Assembly (NCBI GenBank): GCA_947447265.1
Contig: CANFKC010000005.1
Span: 62,001-126,000, forward strand
Length of the DNA stretch: 64,000 nucleotides
Source: Chitinophagaceae bacterium
Lineage (GTDB): Bacteria; Bacteroidota; Bacteroidia; Chitinophagales; Chitinophagaceae
Direction: 5' to 3'
The notes beneath the pieces were generated by a model. It was not told where the DNA came from. It ran no database searches and worked only from the letters and a program-made list of their open reading frames with translations. Positions 41,201-64,000 of this stretch are shown here, piece after piece (the first letter of the stretch is position 1; every line of letters begins with the position of its first letter). A program made the translations under genes and the position numbers.

Positions 41201-41623
41201 CCCAACAGTATCGGACTTACTTACGTTAGCCCACAACGAATGTACGTTGGTGTATTTAGAAAGGTCTCCCGGAAAACCATAGGTATAATAAAAACCCGAT
41301 GCTGTACCTGCTGTATACGCCGAAACGTACCAACCGTAGGTAACAGAGGTAATAGTAGAACCTTGTGGTATGCTGCTGAGATCGAACACTGCATAACCTC
41401 TGGCTGTAAGGTTAGTCGTAGCGACTGTGGTGGTGCGCCCGTGCTGCACTGCAATGTTACCAGTGGACCTGGTCAGCGAATTTGCAGCGTTGGTTAACGG
41501 GTAACCAGAAATATACCCGGTATTGCCGGTTCCTGATGAACCTGTAGAGTATACCGTCACAACCGTACCGAACGCAGCAATATGGAGGCAACACAGCAGG
41601 AGAAACAAATAGATCTTCTTCAT
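23288..41623 (-). CDS. Giant T9SS-secreted surface protein with GEVED and Ig-like repeats
   Basis: About 6,111 residues, by far the largest gene here. I start at the ATG at 41623 (MKKIYLFLLLCCLHIAAFG, a clean signal peptide) instead of the upstream ATG at 41677. Domains in order: a beta-sandwich domain (about 20-235); twelve Ig-like modules each opening with a C-S-G-T-P-type motif; eleven GEVED modules (WIDFN.DG.F..SE.VGG... YRMR ... YYGE.RDY); and ten further beta-rich modules (TP.S..FP.T..G...). These form ten repeat units of about 380 residues. Four Big2-like repeats (about 4380-4690), a globular beta domain (about 4780-5010), three Ig-like repeats with YQLYRGA motifs, and a T9SS type A sorting domain (last 75-80 residues, NPATEEVTIGF) follow. 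The protein is probably exported by T9SS and attached to the cell surface or released, acting in adhesion or gliding. Codon and amino-acid use is skewed to Ser, Thr, Gly and Ala. Confidence 0.9.
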   Translation of the reverse strand: MKKIYLFLLLCCLHIAAFGTVVTVYSTGSSGTGNTGYISGYPLTNAANSLTRSTGNIAVQHGRTTTVATTNLTARGYAVFDLSSIPQGSTITSVTYGWYVSAYTAGTASGFYYTYGFPGDLSKYTNVHSLWANVSKSDTVGPLLAGTTGGSVKYQLAVTAAATGYGTAVGNVTQTLANRFFTDNIGTKVTICMNHVSQSTATTPKIYTIIGETGNTTSTTTASHAPYLTINYTAPSTCSGTPSAGAAVASTHAGNSTTGITLDVAGATKNASITYQWQSSTTSATAGFSNISGATNRTYSFTSISSKTYYKCVVTCSASSSSATSSVDSITTFATSSCTPYHYYQYYVNYASSTPVQMSGYTSFAPITMAGDINTLRDSSFGSPTSYTDRTADINLQDVTLYKTYTHTITMRPGSFGSMVSQVWIDYNNDGTFQNSESIGGGGITANAASNISLSAIPGTVSSGYKRMRVVLGYSSYQTYPFNYPCPTGTTGATFYYGETRDYLINVIDPPPSATASPTSLTFSPTTTGTTSAALVTVLSGAFLLPTSGTVTVTAPTNYTVCSTAGGTYSSTYTISYSSATITANSIYVKFSPPAASTYSGNITITGGGLASALNIPVTGNGAAACSATPSAGSATSTPTSGSNLTTFNLSLTGATAAGGLTYQWESSPDNTTWTAISGATNIAYSFSGMTANTYYHCIVTCPTYGSATSASQLLTFVLPSASCTPSIATGPTSGAASCTTYAMSFCGATTVGGVAIGGATGTVTDNVACNSTGYRDRTALSVTMYKGNSYNVSITFGGGASVYSVYSQWWIDFNSNGTFESTETVGYNSTSFSSGVVALTIPAGVASGTYRMRAVTPYTSYVPPAVNPCMTGYTYGEARDYTVIITNQPPVVVATPTSLNFGVVTSGTTSTYLTSVLTGSSMVASTSLTVTAPTDFQVSPDGTTWSNTFSISVTGSTLAATSIYARYNAPASAGTSTGNITITGGGIVPSTYNIAVNGTSAANCSGTITAGTTVATPASATASSSIVLSLTGGTVAGGLQYQWMQSSTGTGGWTNITGETNPTTTVTGLSATTYYYCLVYCAASGSISYSSVKQIVLYCTPTFYYNATSCSSGYATVATAANHFKVNGASGTSIDDGTLCNGSGFKDQTSSYSVTLNAATTYTFTAGNSGSYTTSYQVWIDFNSDGAFDATESVGGIGLATGGVRTFTVAIPAGSAAIAPGTYRMRVEGEYSYHSYPALYSCPTANTALSQYYGEVRDYTVNLNVPPTLNYAPTSIVFPTTTTGTSSSPMQFYMQCFYLTPSAGSLTISSSNPSDFQVFDPGSSSYVGSYTIAYTAGTVALTSVNVRFSPAAATSYSGTISIAGGGFTTSTVAVSGNGAAICSGTPTAGTTSMSPTTGNASTIFTATCSGFTASGGISFQWQSSPDGSSWTNVSGATNYIYYFTGISATTYYRCNVTCSASSSTATSATCTANFFPPSSCTPGYYYNASTYPMPLATTTTPFRIAGVTTLVDAAGPSSAGSTGAYGYVDNTATTMTCTMNAGTTYAVTTAGSASYTMSEQVWIDFNNDGTFQSSESVGGAALGYTAPHSFNITIPAGSAGITPGTFRMRAIAEYYYHTYPGINPCPNGSTASSYYYGDIRDYKVTINVPPTGSATPSTLAFAPTTTGTSSAAMTSTFTGLFMTPTASSITVTAPANFDVFDPGSSSWTNSYTVAYTGGAITHGIQVRFSPTAVTAYSGNVTVTGGGITTVNIAVTGNGAAACSGTPTAGTAACSPGAGNGSTAFTLTCTGYSVSGGITFQWQSCSTSGGTYTNISGATNSTYSFTGISATTYYQCVVSCSFSSLSATTAYTAANWFPASSCTPAYYYSPSTIASLATATYPFRIVGASGTLLDATAASTSGTTGAYGYQDRTATSITCTMNAGTTYSVSTSGSTGYTQSEQIWIDFNSDGTFQSSESVGGASGLGYTSPHNFTITIPSASAGIAPGTYRMRAISEYYYHTYPSLNPCPPGTTAGSWYYGDVRDYKVTIQVPPTGVASPTAITFPATLPTTSASAINTTIIASYLTPSSGALTVTAPTNFAVWNGSSFVSSYTISYSASTVALTTIQVNFTPPSVGSFSGNLTITGGGLTTVNVALNGTGSSACSGTPTAGTAVATPATAGSGTSITLSLSGASTSSGLTYQWQSASTSGGTYTNITGATNATYTFTGLTATTYYKCVVTCTASGSSATSAFGTATFVLSTATPCTPAPTSASYACTSYTMSFVGASSGSVRLNGASSTSINDVLACNSTGYYDRTALSVTLNQATSYNLSLTFGGGASSYACYSQWWIDFNSNGTFETTESVGYNSTAFTSGVVTLTIPPTAPSGRFRMRGVCDYNSSGHSGPGMSPCMTSYSYGEGRDYTVTIVNPAPFATTAPTSYSFGVVGTGTTTTSTAIIANAYFLTPSSDNVTVTAPSPYLVASTAGGSFASSYTIAYTGATVTNSSVYVRFPAPGTAGTYSGNVTLTGGGISTLNVPVTAIAANACTGTPAAGTASSTPTAGVSGTTFTLSLSGATSALGVLYQWQSSTSGSAGTFSDITGATNATYGATGLTGATFFQCVLTCGYSGISTTSSITQVNVYCTPLWYYASSVCGYPMVVATSGNPFKLVSATDSIIDGTACNSIAFVDNYATTNVTLNAGTTYNATCAGSASYAMSYQIWIDFNNDATFQSSESIGGVGGSTGLNRTFSVAIPSGSAGVSPGVYRMRVIGEYYYHSYPGLNPCPPGTTAGSWYYGEGRDYKVTINVPPVAVATPASLSFPVTTITTTSSPLTTALVAGYLVPASGNITVTAPTDFKVYDAGSSSYVSSYSYAYTGAASTATIQAVFQPTAVATSTGNITVTGGGLTTLNIPVNGTGGPLCSGTPSAGSAAASPGAGNTTTVFTLTVSGYTTAGGLTFQWQSASSSGGTYSNITGATNSSYTFTGISATTYYQCVVTCSASGLSATSAITNIGWYPASSCTPGFYYNASTYPMPLATSTYPFQIAGASSTLIDANGPSSAGSTSTYGYLDNSSTTMTCTLNAGTTYNVTSAGSASYTMANTIWIDFNNNGAFEASESVGGSALSTVSPKTYTITIPSGAAGVVPGTYRMRAGAEYNYHNYGLMNPCPDGTTTNSFYYGDYRDYKVTINVPPTAVATPNPIPFPPTVVGGTPTVSTAVLNASYLLPTTGTITVTSSDPTNFLVWDAGSSSYQPSYTIGYTSRTVTAASVQVQFNPAAATSYSANINITGGSLASAYPIVVTGTGAGVCSGTPTAGTASISPSMGGTATAFTLSVTGYTVAGGLQFQWQSSADNSTWSNVSGATLSTYAFTGISASTYYRCVVTCSASTLSANTASIFVGFYPPSTCTPAWYYTTGCTNGMTIGNPSLPFMVTGASGSISDASSCVAAGYIDQSATTMTCTLNAGTAYTFTTGSSASYSMSFQVWIDFNRNGTFESTESVGGVAGSAAATHTFTVNIPSATAGVSPGLCRMRVEGEYNYHSYPSLYVCPSGSSSLSQYYGEVRDYKITINVPPTASATPSTLAFSPTVVSTSSTANTTLSALYLTPSSGILTVTSTNPAIFKVLDPGSSSYVSSYTYSYTGSTSSPYTITGQFTPTAVAAYTGTVTVTGGGLTTLNIPMTGNGSAACSGTPTAGTAATSPTFGGTSTAFTLSLSGASATGGITFQWQSSPDASSWTNITGATTSTYNFTGISASTYYRCLVTCSYSSTTSTTSPVVIAFIPPSGCTPAWYYTTMCSNGMVLATTANHFKINGLSGTNINDGTACVTTGYIDQAASMGVTLQAGSTYTVTTGNSGSYALSTQVWIDFNNNGSFESSESVGGGAAASGAVRTFSITLPAGGGGIAPGTYRMRAEAEYNYHAYPYLSPCPNGSSASSFYYGEVRDYSVTVNVPPVYSLSPTTISFPTTLVGSSSAALSSTFTGSYLSPSIGTLTVSAPTNFQVYNTTSGTWVSSYTIAYTGYTVAATTIQARFNPPAASTYSGTIVITGGGLGIVSLNVTGTGANMCTGTPTAGTCSASPATASGATTVTMSLSGTSVVAGLTYQWQSSSDSSSWSSITGATNTTYVFSGLTTNTYYRCIVGCSASGLSSTSNGAKVTWVMPTACTPSWIYATNACSSYTMSIGTYDLVGIIGSIHDASACDNTGYLNRTSLSTTLLTGATYVATISTNTAASSYNVNTQVWIDFNSNGTFEGSEIVGGNNAWTGTGHSVTLTIPSGVGIGTLRMRVENEYNYHTYPTMDPCPNGTGTFYYGEVRDYTVVLVNPSTCAGTPTAGSVTATATSGCTPVSSTLSLPSTAGVSGLTYQWETSPNGSSWSNISGATDPTYNSSSTATTTPNTTYYRCTIVCTSSAGTSVSSVRSITATPAPSAIGGTPVVCIGSSTTLTNTLTGGTWSSSATSVASVNPSTGSVYGVAAGSAVISYTTSGCSPATSSFTVNTSPAAITGFTSICVGGSTTLHDATTGGTWSSASSSVATVDPSTGVTTAVAAGTTTITYSNGCGTAATTSWTTNVSPSAIVGPSSICTLSTGTFTDSVSGGTWSNSPTTFGTIDATTGVFSASSTAGTSTLTYTIGYCSITGTATVGITSPGSISGTTTTCFGSATTLTNATSGGAWSSSAPSIATVNPSSGLVTGVSSGTATITYSTGCGSDATTGYTVNGSPVTISAATTCSQSTLNLTASTGAGTYTYSWSGPLGFTSASATPSISSAPTTASGIYSVAATQAGCTSSTSYWVRVDTSIQATVVASPASICPGSSSTVTDAISSPVTGAYALTAIPYAPLTLTSVTAGPSGVAYSTVSLPFSFNYYGTSYSTVTINTQGYINFGTPTYSYAVVSLPSASAPLGMIAPFWHYMNAATGSIQYTTLGTAPNRKFVVRYNAVADYAGGGQNTAQIVLFETSNIIDMFISKANSTGTYNGVCGIQNPSGTVAVTVPGQNNVNYSINNSVAGTAWRFARPSYSYAWTPATGLSSTTSVSPVATLTTTTTYTATVTDAYNGCTAANTAVGTVNVYNLPAAYTVTPATGCTIGTTIGIPNSESGVSYQLYRGATAVGSAITGTSGSPVTFPSVTTAGTYKIIGSLLTGGCQTIMTDSCIVNTTPSTFTITSGNGCTSTGVNICQSGSTSGVSYQLFNGASSVGTPVTGTGSAICFGTQTAAGTYTVVATSATGGCQATMTGSTIIYTNPAAYTVTGGNGCTASCITIGTSNSQSSATYQLYRGATAIGSPASGSTGVGVTFGTQCVAGYYTVLATGPGSCTTQMNGIDTISTTPTITLGANPSVCQPLTSSSISYSGATASPTTYNLTWGSTALADGFSNVTGGTLSGGTIALAVPSTSVSGVYTGSITVSNGFCTSNTYSFTLTVYATPAGSITSAVVPCMGYSTSIVFTGTPGATVAYQINHGSILTGTLTGGTYTLTTGAITAPTTYTLYDVHNPVCSDSINRDTVITPTPMQWVGGTTGSESDWNTSTNWACGFVPGVTDDAIIPSGTTYSPVIGLSASGTTRNITIASGATVTIGTGGTLNVKGGLNNSGSILGAGTTTLNGTTAQIITGIGSVKNLTLNNSAGATIATAAKVFVKGVLAVSSGTLATGDSLVLYSDSLGTARVASLPGSGAAITGTTKVMQWIPGGRRAYRFWSHPFTSNIGLEQVQNYIDVTGPGGATNGFTTTASNAPSAFRYNPLVGNSAVPSDPGWKQFASAYTTTDSNRIHQYQGIRLYFRGAKGEGLGYLPYTPSSVTVAQWGTLNQGTQTVTMAKGSSSGQDYNMVGNPYASPVDIGSVVYNANLAGYITGTGFYVWNPFLGSAGQFQAVVISSVTPYYLQANTCFQVRAAHNGDQLTFAESNKGATANTNLLKVNPEFVALTIYDANYHAWDMLNIKFNDDATNNDDSRFDAGKPTSPADLNFYSLSADNQKLAIDGRPYKADGIIPLGIQSSVAQDFIIKTDNIVVPEGGSLYLHDKLLKQYVLLQQGTEYRFSISEDKQTQGEARFELSMAPTQVNSNKGLQVALTPNPATEEVTIGFTNGKAEEVNVRVLDLSGVSIYNQNLGTKQNGSVTVQLGNFASGVYMVELTSGNQKVVQRLIKE
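28727..40912 (-). repeat. Ten tandem 1.12-1.16 kb coding repeats in the giant adhesin
   Basis: The cysteine codon that opens each Ig-like module lies at 40910, 39746, 38609, 37475, 36335, 35192, 34052, 32930, 31772, 30638, 29507 and 28727. The steps are 1164, 1137, 1134, 1140, 1143, 1140, 1122, 1158, 1134, 1131 and finally 780 bases. The last unit lacks the third module, which explains its shorter length. Units are diverged but keep stretches of near-identical DNA, such as around 33314-33380 and 35573-35640, so recombination could change copy number. Confidence 0.9.
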
Positions 41624-42511
41624 ACGCACAATGTTTACTAGTTTAATTATAATTTTTAATTTTTTCAGAGATTGCAATAAAAAACGATTATCACTCTTGC
41701 CAATTGAGCAAGAATGACCGTGTTTTCAAGGTATTACGAGGTTGGTGATTATTTTAAATGCTACAAGTATGTCTGACATTTCCTGTAACAGCAATATTTT
41801 CTTTTGTTCGCCAGGCCATAAACCAGACGTTGTTTGCAATTATGGTGAGTAAGAGGGTGCTTTAAGCCGCAAACAAGGAAAACATGTTTCAAAGTAAGCA
41901 GATACTACCGGGCAGTTACCAAAAAGCGGCAGCTGGCGATTGTTTTCACGGTATTCAGGAGAGATGGTGATGTAATTTGAGCCTGAAGCATTGCTGCTTT
42001 TTAACCCAGTAAAATAGTTTTCAAGAGACGGGTGTTATTTTTCAAACAATCTAAGCGCAAAAAAAACTGTGTTTTCGAAAAAAAAATCGGGTCAAAAAAA
42101 ATTGGCACTCCTTTTATATATTGACGAACTATAATTTTCTGCTTTTTGGTGGCTTTCATCGCCACTTTCCTGCTATTTTACTTAACTAAAACAGGCATTA
42201 TTACCTGCTAACAACACAAACGTTATTAAAACATTAACTTTTGATTGCTGCTCCAAACTTACCAAATATTTTTTGTTGCAGCAAAATAAATTTTCTTCAT
42301 TAACAAGTTGTTAACAATTGAGAGTTCGCCTAAAAACGCATGTTATTACATCTAAAAATTGATACACTTGCATTTAATATGCCCGCGAAAGGCTTGAATA
42401 CTAGGCTTTTCGGCCATTTTTGTAAAGTGAATTAATATTTATTTAATTATTTTCAGATAAGATTAATTTTGCATGTTATTTAGTTGCATTTTTATTTTTG
42501 TCGTATTTAAT
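41624..42511. other. Long non-coding leader region of the giant adhesin gene
   Basis: No ORF is supported in these 888 bases. The AT-rich sequence contains the promoter at 42254-42285, a dyad TCTTGC-(7)-GCAAGA at 41695-41713, and a 15-base direct repeat TGTTTTCAMGGTATT at 41721 and 41941, exactly 220 bases apart, within longer weak similarity. The leader predicted from the promoter is about 620 nt, unusually long. Confidence 0.5.
42254..42285 (-). promoter_or_regulatory. Canonical Bacteroidota promoter upstream of the giant adhesin
   Basis: On the minus strand TTTG (42285-42282) is followed after 20 bases by TAAGTTTG (42261-42254). Both boxes match the Bacteroidota consensus exactly at the usual spacing. 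The start would be near 42247. Confidence 0.65.
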
Positions 42512-49204: not shown

Positions 49205-50560
49205 ATGAAGGTTCTAACAAAGCATTTACTATTGCTCGCTATGGCATCGTCAGCATTTACGCTGCAGGCGCAAACTATAAGCACATTTGCGGGCAGTATG
49301 GCGAAAGGTGCCGGGTATAATGGCGATGGCGGACAAGCAAATGCCGCACAGCTCAATAAGCCGTCATCTATAGCGCTTGATAAAGCTGGCAATGTTTACA
49401 TCACCGATTTTCAGAATAATGTAGTGCGAAAGGTTAATGCGGAAGGTGTAATTACCACTATTGCCGGTAATGGTACCGAAGGTTATAGCGGAGATGGTTA
49501 TAAAGCCACTGCGGCGCAATTGCACGGCCCATGGGGCATAGCGGTTGATGAAGCAGGGAATGTATATTTTTCTGACAAAGAGAACCATGCCATACGCAAG
49601 GTAAACACAGCCGGCATCATTACTACAATTGCCGGAAAAGGAAAGGCGGGCTATAGCGGCGATAAAGGCCTCGCTACTGCTGCGATGCTCGATCATCCGC
49701 TGGGCCTGGCTATTGATAAAGCAGGCAATATTTATATCGCTGACAATTCCAACACAGCAGTGCGTAAAATAAATACTGCGGGTATCATTACCACTTTTGC
49801 TGGCAGCTTTTCGACAGGCTACTCGGGTGATGGCGGCCTCGCAACCAACGCCAAATTTAAGAACATACGTTATGTGGCCTGCGATGGCATTGGCAATGTG
49901 TATATAAGCGATACCTGGAACTCCGTAATACGCAAAGTGGATGCCGCAGGGTATATAAGCACCGTTGCCGGAAACCATACTTCCAAATACTCGGGAGACG
50001 GTGGCGCTGCCACCAATGCAGGCATTTACTTCCCGGTAGGTATTACAGCAACCGATGACGGCACTTTATTTATTGCCGACAATCATAATCACGTTATTCG
50101 GAAAGTTGATAAAGACGGCATTATTACAACGGTTGCCGGCAATGGAACAAAGGGATACAGTGGTGATAACGGACCTGCTACAACGGCGCAGCTAACCAAC
50201 CCTACCAGCATAGTTGCAGCCCCCGATGGCCGGCTGCTGATTGCGGAATTCGCACACAATATTATCAGGCAGGTGAACGTACCGGCACAGGTTAAAAGCA
50301 TGAGCGAAGCGGATGGCACCCGGTTAAATGTATACCCGAATCCTTCTCACGGGGCCTTCAGCGTGCAGTTACCCGAGTATAAAACCCCAGCCAGCATAAG
50401 TGTGGCCGACATAACCGGCCGCGTTATTGAAACACGCATGATGGAAAAGAACAGCACACAGGTTGTTTCATTCAACCTCATAAACGTTGCTGCCGGCAAC
50501 TATATTGTTAAGGTGGTAGTAGATGGCAATACTAATACTGCAAAAGTGGTTATTGAATAG
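49205..50560 (+). CDS. NHL-repeat protein with T9SS sorting domain
   Basis: 451 residues: signal peptide to about residue 22 (TLQAQ), then six NHL-type repeats of about 55 residues, each with the pattern GYSGDGG.AT.A.L..P.GIA.D..GN.YI.D..N..IRKV, forming a six-bladed propeller (about 25-365). A C-terminal type A sorting domain (LNVYPNPSHGAFSVQLP, then AAGNYIVKV) marks export through T9SS. Such propellers bind proteins or glycans; the partner is unknown. It has its own promoter box and a bidirectional terminator shared with the convergent regulator gene. Confidence 0.88.
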   Translation: MKVLTKHLLLLAMASSAFTLQAQTISTFAGSMAKGAGYNGDGGQANAAQLNKPSSIALDKAGNVYITDFQNNVVRKVNAEGVITTIAGNGTEGYSGDGYKATAAQLHGPWGIAVDEAGNVYFSDKENHAIRKVNTAGIITTIAGKGKAGYSGDKGLATAAMLDHPLGLAIDKAGNIYIADNSNTAVRKINTAGIITTFAGSFSTGYSGDGGLATNAKFKNIRYVACDGIGNVYISDTWNSVIRKVDAAGYISTVAGNHTSKYSGDGGAATNAGIYFPVGITATDDGTLFIADNHNHVIRKVDKDGIITTVAGNGTKGYSGDNGPATTAQLTNPTSIVAAPDGRLLIAEFAHNIIRQVNVPAQVKSMSEADGTRLNVYPNPSHGAFSVQLPEYKTPASISVADITGRVIETRMMEKNSTQVVSFNLINVAAGNYIVKVVVDGNTNTAKVVIE

Positions 50561-56136: not shown

Positions 56137-56161
56137 AAATTAAATTTTCCAAATTTAATTT
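56137..56161. promoter_or_regulatory. 25-base AT-rich palindrome upstream of blaI-like gene
   Basis: AAATTAAATTT (56137-56147) and AAATTTAATTT (56151-56161) are perfect inverted repeats with 3 bases between. A related but imperfect stretch lies at 63435-63460, upstream of the outer-membrane protein gene at the far end of the cluster. Confidence 0.45.
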
Positions 56162-56194
56162 GGTTTTTCCGTTTTGTAACGTACATTTACGTTA
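56159..56194 (+). promoter_or_regulatory. Promoter and candidate BlaI operator of the M56 cluster
   Basis: TTTG (56159-56162) and TACATTTA (56182-56189, one mismatch to TAnnTTTG) are 19 bases apart. Overlapping the -7 box, TAACGTA-CATT-TACGTTA (56177-56194) is a perfect 7-bp-arm palindrome that ends on the A of the start codon. BlaI/MecI repressors bind TACA/TGTA-type dyads over their own promoters, so autoregulation is likely; this is an inference. Confidence 0.55.
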
Positions 56195-56577
56195 TGGAAC
56201 GCAATAAACAATTACAAACCCTTACTAAAGCCGAGGAAGAAGTAATGCAGATCATATGGCAACTGGACCGTTGCCTGGTAAAAGACATCATTGAAAAACT
56301 GGGCGACCCCGATATGCCGCACAGCACAATTTCATCGGTGGTAAGGATACTGGAGAAAAAGGGATTCGTAGACCATAAAGCGTACGGAAAAACTTACGAA
56401 TACTTCCCGGTAATAACTAAAGAAGCTTATGCGCAACACGGGGTTACCAGCCTTATGGAAAAATACTTCGGAGGGTCTCCCCGCAAACTCGTCAGCTTCC
56501 TGGTACAAAGCGAAGACATCAATTTAAAAGAACTGAATGATTTGATGAAAACACTGGATACTCCAAAAAAGAAATAA
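56194..56577 (+). CDS. BlaI/MecI/CopY-family transcriptional repressor
   Basis: 127 residues when started at the ATG at 56194 (MERNKQLQTLTKAEEEVMQIIW), the usual start point of the family; the open frame extends 22 codons further without conservation. The winged-helix domain (about 8-80) includes LTKAEEEVMQIIWQL, DIIEKL and HSTISSVVRILEKKGFV, the recognition-helix region. The C-terminal dimerisation helix follows, with SFLVQSEDINLKELNDLM. In the bla/mec systems such repressors are cut when an M56 receptor senses its ligand. It lies 3 bases before the first M56 gene. Confidence 0.93.
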   Translation: MERNKQLQTLTKAEEEVMQIIWQLDRCLVKDIIEKLGDPDMPHSTISSVVRILEKKGFVDHKAYGKTYEYFPVITKEAYAQHGVTSLMEKYFGGSPRKLVSFLVQSEDINLKELNDLMKTLDTPKKK

Positions 56578-56580
56578 GCC

Positions 56581-58149
56581 ATGCTACAGCACCTTTTGAA
56601 TACCACGGCAATATGGTTGATAAGCCTCTTTCTATTTGATGTTTTCCTGCGCAGGGAAAGCTACCATGGTTATAACAGGTTTTACCTGATGTTTACCTTC
56701 TTACTCGGTGCTATACTTCCCTTGCTGCAATTCAATAAAGTAGAAAAGTTATATGGCGAACGCTTAAGCCAGCCATTAAACGAAATGATAAGGGTAAAGC
56801 AAACCATTGTAACAGCATCTGCACCCATTACCAATTCCATAAGCGGCGAAGAATGGTTACTGCTTTTATATATTATGGGCGCATTGGTAGTATTGACTAC
56901 GCTGGCAGCAGATATTTTTAAGGTTGTCAGTTATTATAGTAAGGGCAGGAAGACTAACGCTGATGGATGGACAATAGTCTGTACCGGCAAAGAACACGCA
57001 CCATTTTCAAAGCTTAATATACTATTTGTAAGCAGCAAAAAACAATACAGCCCTGCAGAATGGGATATGATACTGGTTCATGAAAAAAGACATGCCACAC
57101 TCTTGCATTTCATTGATCTGTTGCTGATGCAGTTGAGCCGAATACTGCTCTGGTTCCACCCGCTCGTATATGTATATAACAACCGGCTGCTGCTGGTGCA
57201 TGAATACCAGGCTGATACTGCATCAGCAGCACTACCAAAGGTGTATGGCACCTTCCTGGTAGAGCAGGCCATGCTGCGGGGCGCACCAATAATTACGCAT
57301 TCTTTAAATCGTTCACCCATAAAAAAACGTATACTCATGCTTACAAGAAAATCAAACAGCGCCGCAAGAACAAAAATGCTGGTATTTGTGCCATTGGCAA
57401 TGGTGTGTATTGTCTGCTTTACCAAAAACAGTACATCGAAAGAATTTAGAAAGAAGGGAGACAAGGTAACCTATAGAGGCAACACCATTGAACTTTCAAA
57501 ACCTGTAACTGATACCCTTAAAAAAGAAGATGTAACCAATAGCCTGACCATACAGCAAGTAATTGTTACGTCGCCGAAACCGGTAAAACTCAATGGAGAA
57601 GCCATACCGCAAAATGTAGATAAAGGCCCTGTATTTACCGGCAGCGAAGGGAACATACGAAATTACATTATTAAAAACGCAAGGGAACAACTCACAGCAC
57701 TTGAGGACGGTATGTACACCCTGGACATATCGAACATACTGATTGACGAAAAAGGAGAAGTGGCATACTTCAATTTTGAAGACGTAAAACGTAGCCGCAG
57801 GCAAGAAGAAATAATAACCATAAAACCCGCGCAAGTAGAGGTTTCGAAGAAACCGGACCCTGAAATCACCGTAACCATAACGAGTGGTCCACAGGCAGGA
57901 ACAACCGGGCGCCTATTAAGAAATACCGGTGAGAAGTATTTTGCTGAAATATCGCCTGAAAACCAGGAAGCTATCCATAGAAAGGTGAACGAGTTGATGA
58001 AAGATGCACCCAGGTTTACACCAGCAACTGTAAGTGGTAAAAAGGTTTCAGCTACTTATCAGTGCCCTCAATTCTGGAACCATTTTAAGGTGGAACAACA
58101 TAAACTATACGAACTCAGCGGAGTTGATAATTGGGTGGAAGTGAAATGA
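56581..58149 (+). CDS. M56 (BlaR1-like) metalloprotease receptor 1
   Basis: 522-residue membrane receptor. Membrane helices lie at about 8-24, 34-50, 92-115 and 266-281. The cytoplasmic zinc protease has HEKRH (167-171) and the third-ligand helix HEYQAD (207-212); WFHPLVYVYN is also family-typical. The C-terminal ectodomain (about 285-522) is not a penicillin-binding transpeptidase-like domain: no SxxK/KTG motifs are seen. It carries LNGEAIPQ, LTALEDGMYTLDI, DEKGEVAYF and GKKVS, matching the other cluster members. This copy has an extra 80 or so residues with ITVTITSGPQAG. It probably cleaves the adjacent BlaI-type repressor on sensing an unknown ligand. Confidence 0.9.
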   Translation: MLQHLLNTTAIWLISLFLFDVFLRRESYHGYNRFYLMFTFLLGAILPLLQFNKVEKLYGERLSQPLNEMIRVKQTIVTASAPITNSISGEEWLLLLYIMGALVVLTTLAADIFKVVSYYSKGRKTNADGWTIVCTGKEHAPFSKLNILFVSSKKQYSPAEWDMILVHEKRHATLLHFIDLLLMQLSRILLWFHPLVYVYNNRLLLVHEYQADTASAALPKVYGTFLVEQAMLRGAPIITHSLNRSPIKKRILMLTRKSNSAARTKMLVFVPLAMVCIVCFTKNSTSKEFRKKGDKVTYRGNTIELSKPVTDTLKKEDVTNSLTIQQVIVTSPKPVKLNGEAIPQNVDKGPVFTGSEGNIRNYIIKNAREQLTALEDGMYTLDISNILIDEKGEVAYFNFEDVKRSRRQEEIITIKPAQVEVSKKPDPEITVTITSGPQAGTTGRLLRNTGEKYFAEISPENQEAIHRKVNELMKDAPRFTPATVSGKKVSATYQCPQFWNHFKVEQHKLYELSGVDNWVEVK

Positions 58150-58191
58150 TTTTACATCAACAACATTAGAACAGTCTAAAAACACCAGGCC

Positions 58192-59673
58192 ATGATACAA
58201 TATCTTTTAAATGTTACAGCTATCTGGCTGATAAGCCTTGTGCTGTTCGATGTTTTCCTGCGCAAGGAAAGTTTTCATAGCTACAACAGGCTTTACCTGT
58301 TATCTACATTGGGTTTGGGTATAGCGTTCCCGATGTTTGATTGGGGTGCTACTTATGAATTAAGCCGAACAGCGATAGCGTTACCAGTAGCGCAGATAGC
58401 TGATACCCGCCAAACCGTCGCAACTGTATTTGCGGGGGCAACTTCAACCAGTGTAGCAACACAAATTAATTGGTGGATAGTTGCCTATCTGGCGGGCGCA
58501 GGCGTAGCGCTTACAAAAATTGCCATTCACCTATTAAAACTCGCCAGACTTTACAATAAAGGATGCAAATTGAAAGAAAACGGTTATACCATTATAGAAA
58601 CAGGTGAAGCACACACACCTTTCTCCTTCCTGAACCTGGTGTTTGTAGGCGAACGAAATGCATACACTACTGTTGAATGGAAGACCGTAATAGCACACGA
58701 ATTACAGCATGCAACTCAACTGCACATTATTGATGTCTGCATCATGCAACTGGCAAGGGTTGTATTCTGGTTCCATCCGCTGGTTTACGCTTACAATAGC
58801 AGGTTGCTGACCGTACATGAATATCAGGCTGACAGGGTCGCGACGACTAAACACACACAATATGGCCGCTTTCTGGTTGAACAAGCCTTGTTAAATGCCG
58901 CGCCCTCCATTACACATTCATTGAATCACTCCCCTATAAAAAAACGGATACTTATGCTTACCAAGAGATCGACCGCCATAGCACAATTGAAAACGCTTAT
59001 TTTCATACCATTAGTGCTGATATCATTCCTTTGCTTTTCGCAAAACTCCAACAGTAAAATTTACAAACCTAATGAATACGGTACCATTATATTTGGAGAC
59101 AACAAGCCGGAATACAGCAGCACAAAATTTGATGAAATTGCCGCAGGTGCAGGTGTTGCCGAATGGAGCGATCATTTTTCAAAGGCAGTAGCTACCCGGA
59201 AAACAACATCGGTGCCACACATGGTAAAAATGAATGGCAAAACCATTCAGCGGGAAAGTTACTGGAGCAACGAAAATGACTGGGTAATGCCGGCCATGTA
59301 TAAAAAACTGAAAACAGAACTACTAGCGCTGGAAGATGGCTATTACTACCTCGGTATTAAAGACCTTATTGTTGATGAAAATGGCAATATCTGTGCCTTC
59401 ACTTATGAGCGAATACTCGGCCTGAAGACCATACCCAACAGCAGCCCGATTGAAGAACGCCCATTTATACCGGTAAATGCAATGGTGGAACAAAAGATAT
59501 TCAACAAGATATGCGCGGAACTTGCTGGGTTCCCTAAGTTAGCACCCACTGTTATCGGCAATAAAAAAGTAGTGAGCGTTAACAGCCTGTTTGGCGATTG
59601 GTGCGCATATTCGCTAAAAGTGCAAAATCACAAATTATACTGTGCCACTAAAGAAGCGTGGGTAGAAATATAA
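58192..59673 (+). CDS. M56 (BlaR1-like) metalloprotease receptor 2
   Basis: 493 residues, start MIQYLLNVTAIWLISLVLFD aligned with copies 1 and 3. Four membrane helices (about 8-24, 34-50, 92-115, 267-283). The protease motif is HELQH (169-173), with HEYQAD (209-214) as third ligand. The segment SPIKKRILMLTKRS precedes the last membrane helix. The ectodomain has MNGKTIQ, LALEDGYYYLGIKDLIVDENG and the closing QNHKLY...AWVEI. It begins 42 bases after copy 1, so co-transcription is likely. Confidence 0.9.
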   Translation: MIQYLLNVTAIWLISLVLFDVFLRKESFHSYNRLYLLSTLGLGIAFPMFDWGATYELSRTAIALPVAQIADTRQTVATVFAGATSTSVATQINWWIVAYLAGAGVALTKIAIHLLKLARLYNKGCKLKENGYTIIETGEAHTPFSFLNLVFVGERNAYTTVEWKTVIAHELQHATQLHIIDVCIMQLARVVFWFHPLVYAYNSRLLTVHEYQADRVATTKHTQYGRFLVEQALLNAAPSITHSLNHSPIKKRILMLTKRSTAIAQLKTLIFIPLVLISFLCFSQNSNSKIYKPNEYGTIIFGDNKPEYSSTKFDEIAAGAGVAEWSDHFSKAVATRKTTSVPHMVKMNGKTIQRESYWSNENDWVMPAMYKKLKTELLALEDGYYYLGIKDLIVDENGNICAFTYERILGLKTIPNSSPIEERPFIPVNAMVEQKIFNKICAELAGFPKLAPTVIGNKKVVSVNSLFGDWCAYSLKVQNHKLYCATKEAWVEI

Positions 59674-59714
59674 CGACAGTAAAATAATTGTTCCACCTTT
59701 TAACCAACGAAGCC

Positions 59715-61166
59715 ATGTTACAATACATCTTAAACTCCACCGCCATCTGGTTGGTAAGCCTTGTACTGTTCGATGTTTTTCTGCGCAGGGAAAGTTATCA
59801 TAGCTACAACAGGCTATATCTTTTATGCACCTTCATTTTAGGCATCGTATTACCGCTCGATATCTGGCATGGGGCAGCGTCAACATACAATTTACCCGAT
59901 GTGGCGCCGGTTCAGCGAATCAATATTGCACGGCAAGCCATTGTTGAAACAGCAACAGCATATTCGCCTGACTCTATTATTAACTGGTGGTGGGTAGCTT
60001 ATGGTATTGGCTTCACGATAGCACTGGCAATACTGGGGAACGATATTTTTAAGCTGGCAAAAATGTTCCGTAACAGCACCCGATCTTACCAGGATGGTTT
60101 AACCGTTATGGAAACAGGCGTAAGCCATACCCCTTTCTCTTTCCGGAAAACTGTATTTGTAGAAAGTCGCGAAAAGTATAACACTGCAGAGTGGCAAACT
60201 GTAATAACACACGAAGGCCACCACGCCAGGCTCAACCACTTTGCTGATGTATTGCTGATGCAGTTGGCTAGACTGTTTTTCTGGTTTCATCCGCTGGTGT
60301 ATGTATACAATAACAGATTACTTACAGTGCATGAATACCAGGCAGATAAGCAGCCCGGCATTAACCTGCAGCACTATGGCCGCTTTTTAATTGAGCAGGC
60401 ATTATTGCAAAGGGCACCGGCCATAACACATTCCTTCAATCATTCACCCATAAAAAAGAGAATACTCATGCTTACCCGTAAATCAGGAGCTATAGCTCAC
60501 CTAAAAATGCTAGTATTTGTACCATTGGTGCTTATATCTGTGATCTGTTTTTCACAAAAAGTGATTGCCAGAACTTTTAAAGCAGATGCATTTGGTTTTG
60601 TAAAACTTGGCGAGAACAAATTCGAGACTTATGCCGCAAAACCTGATACCATTGAAATGGAAGAGGAAAACGGTTCAATGGTTACAAAAATAACAAAGAA
60701 CGACCCCCATGTCATAAAAATGGACGGCAAAAATATTGAACATTCAAATCCCGCGTTCAAAGACAATGCCTCGCCTTCAGGCTACCTGTTTGGTAAAATG
60801 AAAAGAGAATTAAGTCTGCTTGAAGACGGCTATTACAATATAGGCATCGGAGATGTGATAGTTGATGAAAAAGGGAAAACGCGCGCCTTTTATTACCAGC
60901 ATATATGGGGAGGAAAAAAAGAAAATTCCAGCTTGTCAAACTTGAAAGACGATAAGATAGTTGTGAATAAAGAAACGGAGCAGCGCATCTTCAACAGCCT
61001 TTGTAAAGAACTATCTGATTTGCCTACCTGGCAACCTCCGATGATAAACCATAAAAAGACCGTTAGTGCCAATAATATGTTTGGCGAATATTGGGGCAAG
61101 CCTGCAATAAAGGTCCTCAACCATAAGGTATATTTTAAGGAGCAGGACACTTGGATTGCATTGTAG
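59715..61166 (+). CDS. M56 (BlaR1-like) metalloprotease receptor 3
   Basis: 483 residues from the ATG at 59715 (MLQYILNSTAIWLVSLVLFD), which aligns with the starts of copies 1 and 2; an ATG at 59688 would add 9 unmatched residues. Protease motif HEGHH (166-170) and HEYQAD (206-211) are intact. The ectodomain has IKMDGKNIEHS, LSLLEDGYYNIGIGDVIVDEKGK, LPTWQPPMINHKKTV and LNHKVYFKEQDTWIAL. The P.W.P....K.V block is like the C-terminal domain of TonB proteins in Bacteroidota. Its ectodomain is the closest match to the stand-alone protein encoded next. Confidence 0.9.
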   Translation: MLQYILNSTAIWLVSLVLFDVFLRRESYHSYNRLYLLCTFILGIVLPLDIWHGAASTYNLPDVAPVQRINIARQAIVETATAYSPDSIINWWWVAYGIGFTIALAILGNDIFKLAKMFRNSTRSYQDGLTVMETGVSHTPFSFRKTVFVESREKYNTAEWQTVITHEGHHARLNHFADVLLMQLARLFFWFHPLVYVYNNRLLTVHEYQADKQPGINLQHYGRFLIEQALLQRAPAITHSFNHSPIKKRILMLTRKSGAIAHLKMLVFVPLVLISVICFSQKVIARTFKADAFGFVKLGENKFETYAAKPDTIEMEEENGSMVTKITKNDPHVIKMDGKNIEHSNPAFKDNASPSGYLFGKMKRELSLLEDGYYNIGIGDVIVDEKGKTRAFYYQHIWGGKKENSSLSNLKDDKIVVNKETEQRIFNSLCKELSDLPTWQPPMINHKKTVSANNMFGEYWGKPAIKVLNHKVYFKEQDTWIAL

Positions 61167-61178
61167 TAATTCTTATTA

Positions 61179-61195
61179 TTACATTAGAAATGTAA
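61179..61195 (+). promoter_or_regulatory. Dyad element before stand-alone sensor 1
   Basis: TTACATT-AGA-AATGTAA is a perfect 7-bp-arm palindrome. ATTACA starts exactly 22 bases before the ATG, as it does before the two next genes. The TACA...TGTA core resembles BlaI/MecI operators. Confidence 0.5.
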
Positions 61196-61199
61196 ACTT

Positions 61200-61901
61200 A
61201 TGGAAACAGGTAGCGTACTTGCGCGGAAACTGCTAACCATTTTAGCTGTGCTACCTATGCTACTTGTCAGCATTAGCGGCTCTTCGCAAAAAGTGATGAC
61301 CAAAACGTTCACGGCCGGCGAATATGGCTTTGTACAAGTTGGCAACAACACGTTTGAATTTTCCAGGGCTGCCCCTGACACTGTAGAGATAGAAGATGTG
61401 GACGGGACAATGGTAAAGAAAATTGTAATGACGGACCCTTATCCATTGAAAATGGACGGGAAAGATGTTTATGATGGCGATTACCTAATTTTTAAGGGCA
61501 GTATTACCCCGGCCCAATACCTTTCCCAAAAAATAAAAAAAGACATACGGTTGCTCGAAGATGGTTTCTACAATTTCAATGCGACCGACATTGTAGTTGA
61601 TACTAACGGAAAAATATGTGCACTCTATTATCACCCGATTTATGCGCGTAAGGGTGATTTGGCAAAAAACAATAGTGATAGAAAAAAGCCACTGGTCATA
61701 GAGAAAAAACTTGCGCAAAAACTGTTTAACGATATTTGTAACCAGCTCGCGAATTTCCCGAAATTAACCGCCCCTGTAGTGGAAGGGCAAAAAATTGTCA
61801 CCAGATGCAACCTTAGCGAGCAATCTTCCTATTATCAGTTGAAAGTTCAAAAACACAGGGCTTATTTCTACAATAAGGAAAGGTGGATCGAATTAAAATA
61901 A
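61200..61901 (+). CDS. Stand-alone M56-ectodomain-like protein 1
   Basis: 233 residues: a signal peptide or N-terminal membrane helix (about 9-28) and then the same ectodomain as the M56 receptors, with no protease part. Matching blocks: AGEYGFVQVGNNTFEF, PDTVEIEDVDGTMVKKIV, LKMDGKDVYDG, IRLLEDGFYNFNATDIVVDTNGK, FPKLTAP and KVQKHRAYFYNKERWIELK. The protein would sit in the periplasm or be anchored in the inner membrane. It could compete for or present the ligand of the receptors; that is inference. It has a perfect dyad just upstream and may be independently controlled. Confidence 0.85.
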   Translation: METGSVLARKLLTILAVLPMLLVSISGSSQKVMTKTFTAGEYGFVQVGNNTFEFSRAAPDTVEIEDVDGTMVKKIVMTDPYPLKMDGKDVYDGDYLIFKGSITPAQYLSQKIKKDIRLLEDGFYNFNATDIVVDTNGKICALYYHPIYARKGDLAKNNSDRKKPLVIEKKLAQKLFNDICNQLANFPKLTAPVVEGQKIVTRCNLSEQSSYYQLKVQKHRAYFYNKERWIELK

Positions 61902-61910
61902 GTTGTATAA

Positions 61911-61927
61911 TTACATTTAAAATTTAA
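61911..61927 (+). promoter_or_regulatory. Dyad-like element before stand-alone sensor 2
   Basis: TTACATT-TAA-AATTTAA is a one-mismatch version of the palindrome before sensor 1. ATTACA starts at 61910, 22 bases before the ATG at 61932. Confidence 0.4.
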
Positions 61928-61931
61928 GCTC

Positions 61932-62618
61932 ATGAAAGTTAAATGCCTTACACCTGCACTTCTAAGAACATTCATTGTTACCCCGCTGCTACTGGCAGGG
62001 ATTGTTGGCTTTGCACAAAAAAGCAGCACTAAAACCTATGTACCTGACCAATATGGTATGGTCAATCTCGGTGCTAAAATAGAGTATGATAACGGCAGAA
62101 CGGACACCATGGAAATGGAAGACCCTGCCACGAAAGAAATAATAAAACGAATAATAAAAAGTGACCCGCGCCCTGTAAAAGTTAACGGCAAAGAATTTAT
62201 TGTTGAAGGCGCTGAACCGGCAACTTTTAAAGGTAAAGGTACGGTGCAGGAATATGTGTTTACAAAAATGAAAGGCAACCTGGCTAAGCTCGACGATGGC
62301 TTTTATACTGTAAGTATTTTCAACATAATGGTTGATGAAAAGGGTAAAACATGGGCATTTTCTTACGAGCCAGTGAATGGAACAAAAACAGAAGCTCCCC
62401 AGCATAATGAGCCTGCAATAAATGTGGACCCTAAAACGGAGAAAGCAATATTTGAGAACGCCTGTAACGTAATGGCGAACTTGCCACTATGGAAGCCCTC
62501 TGAACAAAAGGGCAAAAAAGTAGTGGGCGAAGGCTATGGCAGCACCTACCGTGAAAAATTAAAAGTACAGGGCCATAAAGTATACCTGAAAATAAAAGAC
62601 AACTGGAAAGCGCTTTAA
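61932..62618 (+). CDS. Stand-alone M56-ectodomain-like protein 2
   Basis: 228 residues with a cleavable-looking signal peptide (TFIVTPLLLAGIVGFAQ) and the ectodomain blocks DQYGMVNLGAKIEYD, DTMEMEDPATKEIIKRI, VKVNGKEFIVEG, LAKLDDGFYTVSIFNIMVDEKGK, and LPLWKPSEQKGKKVV. The last block is the clearest TonB-C-like P.WKP....GK.V motif in the cluster. It ends with LKVQGHKVYLKIKDNWKAL, like the receptor tails. No protease domain. Confidence 0.85.
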   Translation: MKVKCLTPALLRTFIVTPLLLAGIVGFAQKSSTKTYVPDQYGMVNLGAKIEYDNGRTDTMEMEDPATKEIIKRIIKSDPRPVKVNGKEFIVEGAEPATFKGKGTVQEYVFTKMKGNLAKLDDGFYTVSIFNIMVDEKGKTWAFSYEPVNGTKTEAPQHNEPAINVDPKTEKAIFENACNVMANLPLWKPSEQKGKKVVGEGYGSTYREKLKVQGHKVYLKIKDNWKAL

Positions 62619-62670
62619 CCAATTTTCCTGCCCGGCCTGCTGTGTTATGCTTTGTAAAACTTTTGTATCA

Positions 62671-62687
62671 TTACAATTAAAATTGAT
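62671..62687 (+). promoter_or_regulatory. Dyad-like element before stand-alone sensor 3
   Basis: TTACAAT-TAA-AATTGAT is the weakest of the three. ATTACA begins at 62670, again 22 bases before the ATG at 62692, which also supports that start over the ATG at 62647. Confidence 0.35.
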
Positions 62688-62691
62688 TGTG

Positions 62692-63372
62692 ATGCTTACT
62701 AAGCCCAAACAAGTAACCGCACAAATAACGCTGACCGTTCTGTTTATACTACTTTCTGTACCCGGTTTTGCAATAAAAAAGAGTGCTAAAAAGTATGCAG
62801 TAAACCCATACGGTATTGTAACCCTCTATGACGACAAATTCATCTATTCCAAAGCAACAGTTGATACAATTGAGTCGGCGGAACCGGGTAGCGATGTCGA
62901 GATAAGAAAAATTATTAAAACCAAGGGCAGGCCCGTAAAAATGAATGGCAAAGTTATTCATGATGAATTACCTGTATTTAAGCAAAAACACAACCTGGAG
63001 GAACACTTACTGAATAAACTGCGTGGCGAATTAAACAGTTTGCCTAATGGTAAGTACACTCTGGAATTATACAATATGATTATTAATGAGGATGGAAAGG
63101 TTTGTGCGTTCTCTTATGAAGGTATATCAGCCTCAGAAGCTGAAGACGAACGCGGGAAAAGCGTTTTTGTTATTGATAAAATACAGGCGCAACACTTATT
63201 CCAGAAGATCTGTACTGAATTGACCAACCTTCCGCCATTTGAGGCGCCTCAACTAAAAGGCAAAAAAATTATAAGTGTTAGTAATCCTATTTATCCTAAT
63301 CAATTCTGGATACGGGACCATAAGATCCTCATAAAGCAAAAAGACCAATGGCGCGACTTGCCTGTATTTTAA
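62692..63372 (+). CDS. Stand-alone M56-ectodomain-like protein 3
   Basis: 226 residues from the ATG at 62692. An in-frame ATG at 62647 would add 15 residues, but the shorter form aligns with its neighbours and keeps the 22-base spacing to the ATTACA element. The start MLTKPKQVTAQITLTVLF matches the MLT(R/K) stretch that precedes the last membrane helix in the full receptors. Ectodomain blocks: VNPYGIVTLYDDKFIYS, VKMNGKVIHDELP, LNSLPNGKYTLELYNMIINEDGK (the usual LEDG is LPNG here), LPPFEAPQLKGKKII, and a WIRDHKILIKQKDQWRDL end. Confidence 0.85.
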   Translation: MLTKPKQVTAQITLTVLFILLSVPGFAIKKSAKKYAVNPYGIVTLYDDKFIYSKATVDTIESAEPGSDVEIRKIIKTKGRPVKMNGKVIHDELPVFKQKHNLEEHLLNKLRGELNSLPNGKYTLELYNMIINEDGKVCAFSYEGISASEAEDERGKSVFVIDKIQAQHLFQKICTELTNLPPFEAPQLKGKKIISVSNPIYPNQFWIRDHKILIKQKDQWRDLPVF

Positions 63373-63484
63373 TATTTGATATAGAATATAAGCTTTAAAA
63401 TTCGCCTCTATTAACAATACTTTATTACCGGAAAAAATTAAATTTTCGCATATTTAATGGATTTTTGTGCCTTAACATTCCTAA
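63373..63484 (+). promoter_or_regulatory. Intergenic region before the outer-membrane protein gene
   Basis: The AT-rich gap contains AAATTAAATTTTCGCATA (about 63437-63455), similar to the palindromic stretch upstream of the blaI-like gene (56137-56161), followed in both cases by GGTTTTT/GGATTTTT. It may mark shared regulation of the two ends of the cluster. Confidence 0.3.
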
Positions 63485-64000
63485 GTGAAGACATTAATTA
63501 ATTTTTTTATACTGGTTTTGCTTTTCAGCATTACCAATTCTTACGTATTTGCGCAGGCAGGAGGACCAGGTTCAGGTAGCAGTAGCGAAGCTAAACTGGG
63601 TAGTTTATCCGGCAAATTGATTGACGATAAAAATCAACCCATCTCCTATGCAACCGTTACTTTATTGCGTATAGATTCCGGTGTAGTCAATGGCGACCTT
63701 ACCAAAGATGATGGCACCTTCCGGATAGGGCCCGTAAGCATGGGTACTTTCCGTTTAAGGATAGAATCTATCGGTGTTACTACCAAGTACCTCACAGTAG
63801 CCATTACAGCTGATACGCCCGATAAAAACATGGGCAACATAAAAATAGCCGCCAGCGAAACCACCCTGAAAACAGTGAACATTGTGGGTGAAAAAACCGC
63901 CATGGAACTAAAGGTGGACAAAAAGGTATTCAATGTTGAAAAGAACATTACCAGTGCCGGCGGCAATGCAACTGATGTACTTCAAAATGTACCTTCCGTT
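63485..64000 (+). CDS. Outer-membrane beta-barrel (TonB-receptor-like) protein, N-terminal part
   Basis: Partial gene; 172 codons are visible before the window ends. It starts with GTG at 63485, directly after an in-frame TAA. The signal peptide is KTLINFFILVLLFSITNSYV with FAQ as likely cleavage end. A carboxypeptidase regulatory-like domain follows (about 37-125; LSGKLIDDKNQPISYATVTLL and DDGTFRIGPV). The visible end has LKVDKKVFNVEKNI and NATDVLQNVPSV, the plug-domain start typical of Bacteroidota outer-membrane receptor families. Its neighbourhood next to TonB-C-like sensors is suggestive of a functional link. Confidence 0.85.
   Translation, partial: MKTLINFFILVLLFSITNSYVFAQAGGPGSGSSSEAKLGSLSGKLIDDKNQPISYATVTLLRIDSGVVNGDLTKDDGTFRIGPVSMGTFRLRIESIGVTTKYLTVAITADTPDKNMGNIKIAASETTLKTVNIVGEKTAMELKVDKKVFNVEKNITSAGGNATDVLQNVPSV

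Follow-up and report, generated by a model that had tools for sequence, protein, structure and literature searches.

The window analysed here, a 64,000-nucleotide stretch of contig CANFKC010000005.1 from a Chitinophagaceae bacterium, contains at positions 56137–64000 an array of genes that runs head to tail on the forward strand throughout. The array consists of blaI, which encodes a BlaI/MecI-type repressor, three genes for BlaR1-like M56 receptors (M56-1, M56-2 and M56-3), three genes that encode a receptor ectodomain only (E1, E2 and E3) and a gene for an outer-membrane receptor (OMP). Our best explanation, to which we give a probability of about 0.48, is that this is a self-regulated BlaI/M56 operon that senses the coupling between GldM and GldN in the type IX secretion/gliding machine, with the secreted ectodomains acting as feedback competitors; we infer both the sensing and the feedback step. 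Judged from profiles, the ectodomain resembles a TonB_C-like half joined to a GldN-like hairpin, and it is the hairpin that provides the link to the machine.

Structure of the ectodomains

Receptor and stand-alone ectodomains are homologous, with E1 matching the other five ectodomains of the array at E-values from 1.5e-48 to 7.5e-11. When the ectodomain profile was aligned with the TonB C-terminal domains of the same genome, hhalign returned a probability of 96.5 and an E-value of 8.7e-10 over 56 columns, compared with an E-value of 0.15 for a control pair made up of TonB_C and the GldM_C-like family described below. In the AlphaFold2 prediction (79 sequences, mean predicted local distance difference test score 89.3), the secondary structure elements follow each other as helix-strand-strand-helix-strand, an order that fits TonB_C. 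Searches of PDB sequences with receptor and ectodomain profiles returned no significant relative, and querying Pfam and NCBIfam with individual ectodomain sequences yielded nothing meaningful.

The GldN-like hairpin precedes the TonB_C-like half, its two strands being E58-65 and E71-78 in the AlphaFold2 model of E1. A search of the bacterium's own genome with E1 matched 30 residues of GldN with 57 percent identity (E 1.5e-4), the hairpin PDTVEIEDVDGTMVKKIVMTD of E1 (61374–61436, forward strand) corresponding to PDTIEVEDVDGTMIKKIIKKD in GldN. The hairpin of M56-3, KPDTIEMEEENGSMVTKITKND, is encoded at 60639–60704 on the same strand. PF19841, which describes the whole GldN domain, has no match in the window ectodomains; the two have one hairpin only in common. 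A hidden Markov model (HMM) built solely from the hairpins of 42 GldN proteins recognised, at E below 1e-3, 27 of 64 M56 receptors with an ectodomain of the window type and 7 of 45 free ectodomains, but none of the controls: 1165 other open reading frames of more than 150 amino acids, 82 BlaI proteins, 14 Lon proteases and 42 M56-TonB_C receptors.

The GldN matched by the E1 hairpin adjoins one of two long GldM genes of the genome (G000, contigs C1 and C48), namely the copy on C1; several relatives also have two. Contig C30 of this genome carries three tandem GldN-like genes with N-terminal extensions (locus L209, 5928–9649), and no M56 gene was found on it.

Co-variation of the hairpin with GldN

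The GldN proteins of 42 genomes were compared with 87 ectodomains, of which 48 form the hairpin-bearing subset. The excess score for the GldN of an ectodomain's own genome was 10.2, a value reached in none of 5000 permutations (mean of the null distribution -0.2, standard deviation 1.02). The own GldN was the best of the 42 for 18 of the 87 ectodomains (14 of 50 receptors and 4 of 37 free forms). Among the proteins of the window, M56-3 and E1 score highest with their own GldN, which takes a lower rank for E2 and E3. Within the hairpin-bearing subset, the effect is limited to the hairpin: 20 segments of GldN outside it score between -1.25 and 0.57, and three segments on it score 5.2, 16.8 and 10.5. 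Defining the subset without the own genome leaves 47 ectodomains, and the observed score was again reached in 0 of 5000 permutations.

For the 48 hairpin-bearing ectodomains, the own GldN was also compared with that of the nearest relative in four comparisons, in which the relative's hairpin was required to be progressively less alike. The own GldN won by 31 to 15, 35 to 13, 33 to 15 and 38 to 10 (p 0.026, 0.002, 0.013 and 0.00006). Permutations confined to clusters of close relatives gave p 0.0003 (1 in 3001) at each of four cut-offs. Hairpin and GldN thus diversify jointly as the species tree branches. A copy that was old and evolved independently should not track GldN; the simplest reading is that a shared partner imposes selection on both.

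Other parts of the machine in related arrays

Related arrays hold a secreted family of about 140 amino acids, here called GldM_C-like, the profile of which also finds GldM-sized proteins beside GldN in 10 of 147 Chitinophagaceae-family genomes (E 4.4e-8 to 6.6e-4). The domain occurs both free and on M56 receptors (loci L086, L087, L102, L113, L117 and L118, of which L102 also contributed a sequence to the profile); a search of the own genome for such a protein found none. Comparison of 20 GldM_C-like proteins with 30 GldM proteins gave an excess for the own GldM of 9.5 (standard deviation of the null distribution 2.45, 0 of 5000 permutations), a score uncorrected for phylogeny. GldN domains are also present, free in loci L082 and L090 (PF19841 E 4e-31 and 5e-30, with a second copy in L090) and on an M56 receptor in L085 (PF19841 E 7e-36).

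In Porphyromonas gingivalis, domain D4 of PorM is reported to bind loops 6 and 4 of PorN (PMC12421860), and the tip of PorM has been modelled, with weak confidence, in the cleft between PorN subunits (PMC12635249). By alignment and the numbering published in PMC12421860, the GldN hairpin falls at about residues 122–138 of PorN, just before the turning loop 156–162, and is probably PorN loop 6.

Arguments against a link to GldN and GldM

A number of results weigh against the proposed sensing of GldM-GldN coupling. A further, weaker alignment links the ectodomain profile to the GldM_C-like family (E 1.9e-4). Foldseek searches of the PDB with two AlphaFold2 models gave no significant match, the TonB homologue FusB appearing at E 1.8 to 3.3 only; the TonB_C assignment therefore rests on the profiles. 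The alignment between the GldN-like profile and the ectodomain profile is weak (E 4.4e-5 over 32 columns), no protein of the window reaches E 1e-3 with the hairpin HMM (E1 is best with 0.0018, followed by M56-3 with 0.0076 and E2, with a weak hairpin, at 0.19), and M56-1, M56-2 and E3 have no match to it. Only 48 of the 87 ectodomains scored are classed as hairpin-bearing. When all 87 are taken, the own GldN is preferred to that of the nearest relative by just 47 to 34, with 6 ties (p 0.18), and when counted per genome by 22 to 15, with 3 ties (p 0.32). The own GldN does not score better than the relatedness trend predicts (median +1.6, mean -0.7, p 0.25), and the hairpin therefore tracks the phylogeny of GldN and not the single genome. 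Single GldM_C-like members stay below the Pfam cut-off for GldM_4th (best E 0.004), the L102 receptor has no GldM_4th match, and the ranks of the own GldM, uncorrected for phylogeny, are mixed, from first (4 of 20 proteins) to 28th of 30 at worst. The equivalence to PorN loop 6 is derived from numbering. Finally, the stretch of the own genome that carries gldN and gldM (L212) contains no site for the candidate operator described below.

Part of this evidence would also fit a quite unlikely alternative, namely that the likeness of the hairpin is a by-product of ancestry or of repeated copying from gldN, with no sensing of the machine and with another ligand, for example peptidoglycan. TonB of E. 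coli has been reported to bind peptidoglycan. Hairpin similarity drops with species distance (the correlation with relatedness is positive for 45 of the 48 hairpin-bearing ectodomains), and the absence of an own-genome excess over that trend is as this alternative would have it. However, a lone old copy evolving by itself should lose step with GldN as species diverge, although this is an argument and not a test, and recent copying predicts shared codons, which are not seen: among the 24 best-matching ectodomains, identical residues use the same codon in 144 of 319 cases, with 132.8 expected, so gene conversion as the source of the match is unsupported. Nor does a by-product explain well why receptors repeatedly carry GldN-like and GldM_C-like ectodomains.

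Organisation of the array

The gaps between the genes of the array measure 3–112 bases, so it is likely to be transcribed as a single unit. The blaI gene extends from an ATG at 56194 to 56577, so that position 56137, at which the region of a preliminary description made from the sequence begins, is not its start; its product matches PF03965 (E 8e-30) and, in the PDB, chains of MecI and BlaI. M56-1 (56581–58149), M56-2 (58192–59673) and M56-3 (59715–61166, where a TTG at 59688 is a possible alternative start) follow on the forward strand and all exceed the PF05569 cut-off; their zinc motifs are HEKRH, HELQH and HEGHH, respectively, plus HEYQAD. The stand-alone proteins E1 (61200–61901), E2 (61932–62618) and E3 (62647–63372, with 62686 as another possible start) are encoded on the same strand. 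Each has one hydrophobic helix in a Kyte-Doolittle scan, a presumed signal or membrane segment, and corresponds to the last helix and ectodomain of a receptor and nothing else. Open reading frames, family matches and motifs thus confirm the gene content, the intact HExxH motifs and the single direction given in the preliminary description.

The gene for the OMP, a protein of 886 amino acids with OMP_b-brl_3, Plug and CarboxypepD_reg domains, begins at 63485 on the forward strand and continues past the end of the window at 64000 to a would-be end at 66145. It corresponds to L006 7485–10145 and is followed by a DUF4197 gene. Its presence, in the window and in the related locus L081, within the same gene run would fit a signalling system of the FecA-FecR type, in which the plug or TonB box belonging to the downstream TonB-dependent receptor would be sensed by the TonB_C-like ectodomains and the free ones would be TonB-like adaptors. 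The TonB_C-like half of the ectodomain is in keeping with such a role, as are the M56-TonB_C receptors that adjoin TonB_C genes in other Bacteroidota. We consider it unlikely: an OMP was recognised within 3 genes of the array solely in the window and L081, the hairpin tracks GldN, and PF03544 has no curated-score match in any of 37 ectodomains among the families listed (25 of 31), nor in the proteins of the window.

The own genome (5.06 Mb in 98 contigs) has five M56 genes and three BlaI genes, and the ectodomains of the other two BlaI/M56 pairs are Amidase_3 and TonB_C domains. The Amidase_3-bearing receptor, located at L007 9289–10929, is paired with a BlaI of its own. Elsewhere in the window, 23288–41677 encodes a protein of 6129 amino acids, the two scanned 2000-residue ends of which contain GEVED and Ig-like domains together with a sorting tail for type IX secretion, and the product of 49205–50560 also has such a tail.

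The candidate BlaI operator

An exact palindrome, TAACGTA-CATT-TACGTTA (56177–56194, without strand), overlaps the first base of the blaI start codon and is a candidate operator. Its core, AACGTA-N4-TACGTT, is found with at most 2 mismatches upstream of all 46 related blaI genes, exactly in 37 of them, compared with 16 of 920 upstream sequences after simple shuffling. In 905 kb of loci chosen around the array and gld-like genes, the 18-mer TAACGTA-N4-TACGTTA occurs 45 times with at most 1 mismatch, every time at a blaI gene. The own genome contains a single exact 18-mer, that at 56177–56194, and one site with a single mismatch elsewhere (on contig C35); with up to 2 mismatches there are 18 sites, against 46 for a reversed control pattern. 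Since the exact site is unique in the genome and the sites in the 905 kb of chosen loci are confined to blaI, BlaI probably controls mainly its own operon, which would make the free ectodomains and the OMP outputs of the system. The operator of staphylococcal BlaI and MecI is of the TACA/TGTA type; this type was rejected here, being present in only 2 of 90 upstream sequences, duplicates included. The BlaI/M56-TonB_C loci of the type found in Flavobacteriia (L121–L158) have another palindrome at blaI, AACTAA-N4-TTAGTT, in 26 of 36 cases.

Recurrence and evolution

A profile of the six ectodomains, used at E 0.001, matched 22 of 195 Chitinophagaceae-family genomes, the own one included, in 14 of 101 genera. 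Of the two other genomes sampled from the same genus, G089 encodes a single receptor without a free form, and G166 gave no match. A class-wide search of 395 genomes, with at most 7 candidates scored in most of them, found no genome besides the own one and a single further member of its family. From a scan of genome contigs the best 78 of 139 loci were kept, and after removal of duplicates 45 loci have BlaI and a receptor of the window type; free domains were counted when on the same strand, within 8 kb and shorter than 330 amino acids. Each of the 45 loci has one blaI. Free domains (ectodomains of the window type, GldM_C-like or GldN-like) occur in 29 of them, and a free ectodomain of the window type in 24, so the stand-alone genes are not isolated duplications missing from relatives. 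Two or more receptors are present in 14 loci, and several receptors together with a free domain in 11.

The nearest locus among the best 78 of 139 is L081, from a metagenome-assembled genome of Flavipsychrobacter stenotrophus, with the gene order blaI, M56, M56, ectodomain, OMP, interrupted by the contig end. Identity to L081 is 94.5 percent for BlaI, 86 percent for M56-1, the slowest-changing receptor of the array, 72 percent for the OMP (489 residues), 58 percent for M56-3 and 46 percent for E3. The ratio of non-synonymous to synonymous substitution rates relative to L081 is 0.023 for BlaI and 0.092 for M56-1; for M56-2, M56-3, the free ectodomains and the OMP, saturation of synonymous sites makes the ratio unusable. 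Locus L102 equals the window in its numbers of receptors (three) and free ectodomains (three) and has two free GldM_C-like proteins besides; L059, from Taibaiella soli, has blaI and one receptor. The search of other Bacteroidota for the gene order, proposed in the preliminary description, thus found that the array recurs.

Several of the related arrays have a lon protease gene upstream of blaI on the same strand, directly or with intervening genes (L052, L053, L059, L062, L063, L070, L096, L104–L107, L110, L111 and L119; recognised with Pfam in three of these loci and otherwise by similarity). In L051 an ETF gene takes this place. In some arrays a gene for a DUF6624 protein separates blaI from M56 (L062 8759–9730, L063 4891–5874).

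An ectodomain tree of 99 rows (57 receptor, 42 free), a quick tree with many long branches, requires at least 17 changes between receptor and free state, of which at least 7 are forced by well-supported branches. M56-2, M56-3 and all three stand-alone proteins share a single clade with two proteins of L081, with M56-1 apart, and E3 groups with the L081 stand-alone protein (Shimodaira-Hasegawa-like approximate likelihood ratio test 89). These frequent interchanges would be expected if the free ectodomains and extra receptors were duplicates without a role, and the distance of several copies from those of L081, such as E3, and the lone receptor of G089 point the same way. Against this very unlikely explanation stand the intact reading frames, the recurrence of free ectodomains in 24 of the 45 loci and the existence of free forms of three domain types.

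Receptor mechanism and proposed function

Among 62 receptors with an ectodomain of the window type, the HExxH motif is kept in all 62 and an HS-[FL] motif is present in 55 (F in 50 and L in 5); in M56-1, M56-2 and M56-3 the motif reads HSL, HSL and HSF. BlaR1 is reported to cleave itself between Ser283 and Phe284 (PMC9834060). The free proteins begin some residues past the HS-[FL] point and are therefore similar to what would remain of a receptor's outer part after such a cut. In the alignment with MecI, BlaI has a phenylalanine within 1 residue of the repressor cleavage position. The BlaI repressor, the M56 domain and the cleavage-type motif are what a canonical bla/mec-like beta-lactam sensor would have, yet such a function is most improbable: Pfam and NCBIfam gave no penicillin-binding family for any ectodomain (for 37 ectodomains, among the families listed), in line with the earlier remark that transpeptidase motifs are lacking, and no operon protein matches a beta-lactamase or penicillin-binding protein.

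In the proposed sensing of GldM-GldN coupling, BlaI bound to the palindrome at its own start codon would repress blaI, the receptors, the free ectodomains and the OMP. Each receptor would have a cytoplasmic zinc protease domain and, after its last membrane helix, a periplasmic TonB_C-like domain, to which M56-3, E1 and, weakly, E2 would add a hairpin that copies the GldN loop. The likely ligand would be whichever component of the type IX secretion/gliding machine pairs with that loop, with the C-terminal domain of GldM as the foremost candidate. When motor and ring are uncoupled or unbalanced, free partner could bind the receptor; the protease would then cut itself at the HS-F/L motif and next cut BlaI, inducing the operon. 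The secreted ectodomains may compete for the same partner, which would provide negative feedback, or they may act on the machine.

More generally, and more tentatively, the arrays could represent a class of anti-repressor receptors that monitor a secretion/motility motor by mimicry, with co-evolving copies of both motor-ring contact faces that are also freed as periplasmic modulators. That these faces are the GldN hairpin and the GldM C-terminal domain, with a whole GldN-like domain in one locus, is put forward equally tentatively. If true, BlaR1-type receptors would be a general chassis for grafted copies of machine parts, and some Bacteroidota would have a dedicated sensor of coupling in the gliding and type IX secretion motor. 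Monitoring of machine assembly or load would become testable, with the free ectodomains as ready soluble probes of the motor-ring contact.

The interpretation in the preliminary description, that of a multi-input sensing system with stand-alone domains as decoys or co-receptors, is partly supported, and such roles are possible. It lacked the TonB_C-like half and the GldN-like hairpin, the candidate operator that would make the stand-alone proteins outputs and the proposed link to gliding and type IX secretion. The titles and abstract starts among the open-licence matches listed for BlaR1, BlaI or M56 with TonB, GldN, gliding or type IX hold no account of such receptors; PMC12578637 matched through an accident of spelling only, and in PMC10470040 the terms are confined to gene lists. 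The BlaI/M56 kind of system is already known; what appears to be new is the class of sensor and the way in which it matches parts of the machine.

Comparison with known systems

The array shares with the staphylococcal BlaI-BlaR1 and MecI-MecR1 systems a BlaI-family repressor, an M56 protease with HExxH, an ectodomain past the last membrane helix, an HS-F/L motif as at the BlaR1 autocleavage site and a palindrome at blaI. Unlike them, it has no penicillin-binding sensor and no beta-lactamase gene, its palindrome is another one, there are several receptors per repressor, and it contains free ectodomains.

The BlaI-M56-TonB_C pairs of Flavobacteriia and Cytophagia (L121–L158) are similar in combining BlaI with an M56 receptor that has a TonB C-terminal domain, sometimes with a TonB_C neighbour. 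They differ in that the GldN hairpin is found in 0 of 42, the palindrome is AACTAA-N4-TTAGTT and an HS-[FL]xx[ST]PxK motif is present in 2 of 41 only. When the comparison is extended to the machine of GldN/PorN and GldM/PorM, the GldN hairpin and relatives of the GldM C-terminal domain recur in receptor ectodomains and in free proteins, with the difference that in the arrays these parts are joined to a regulatory protease or come from a gene next to that of such a protease.

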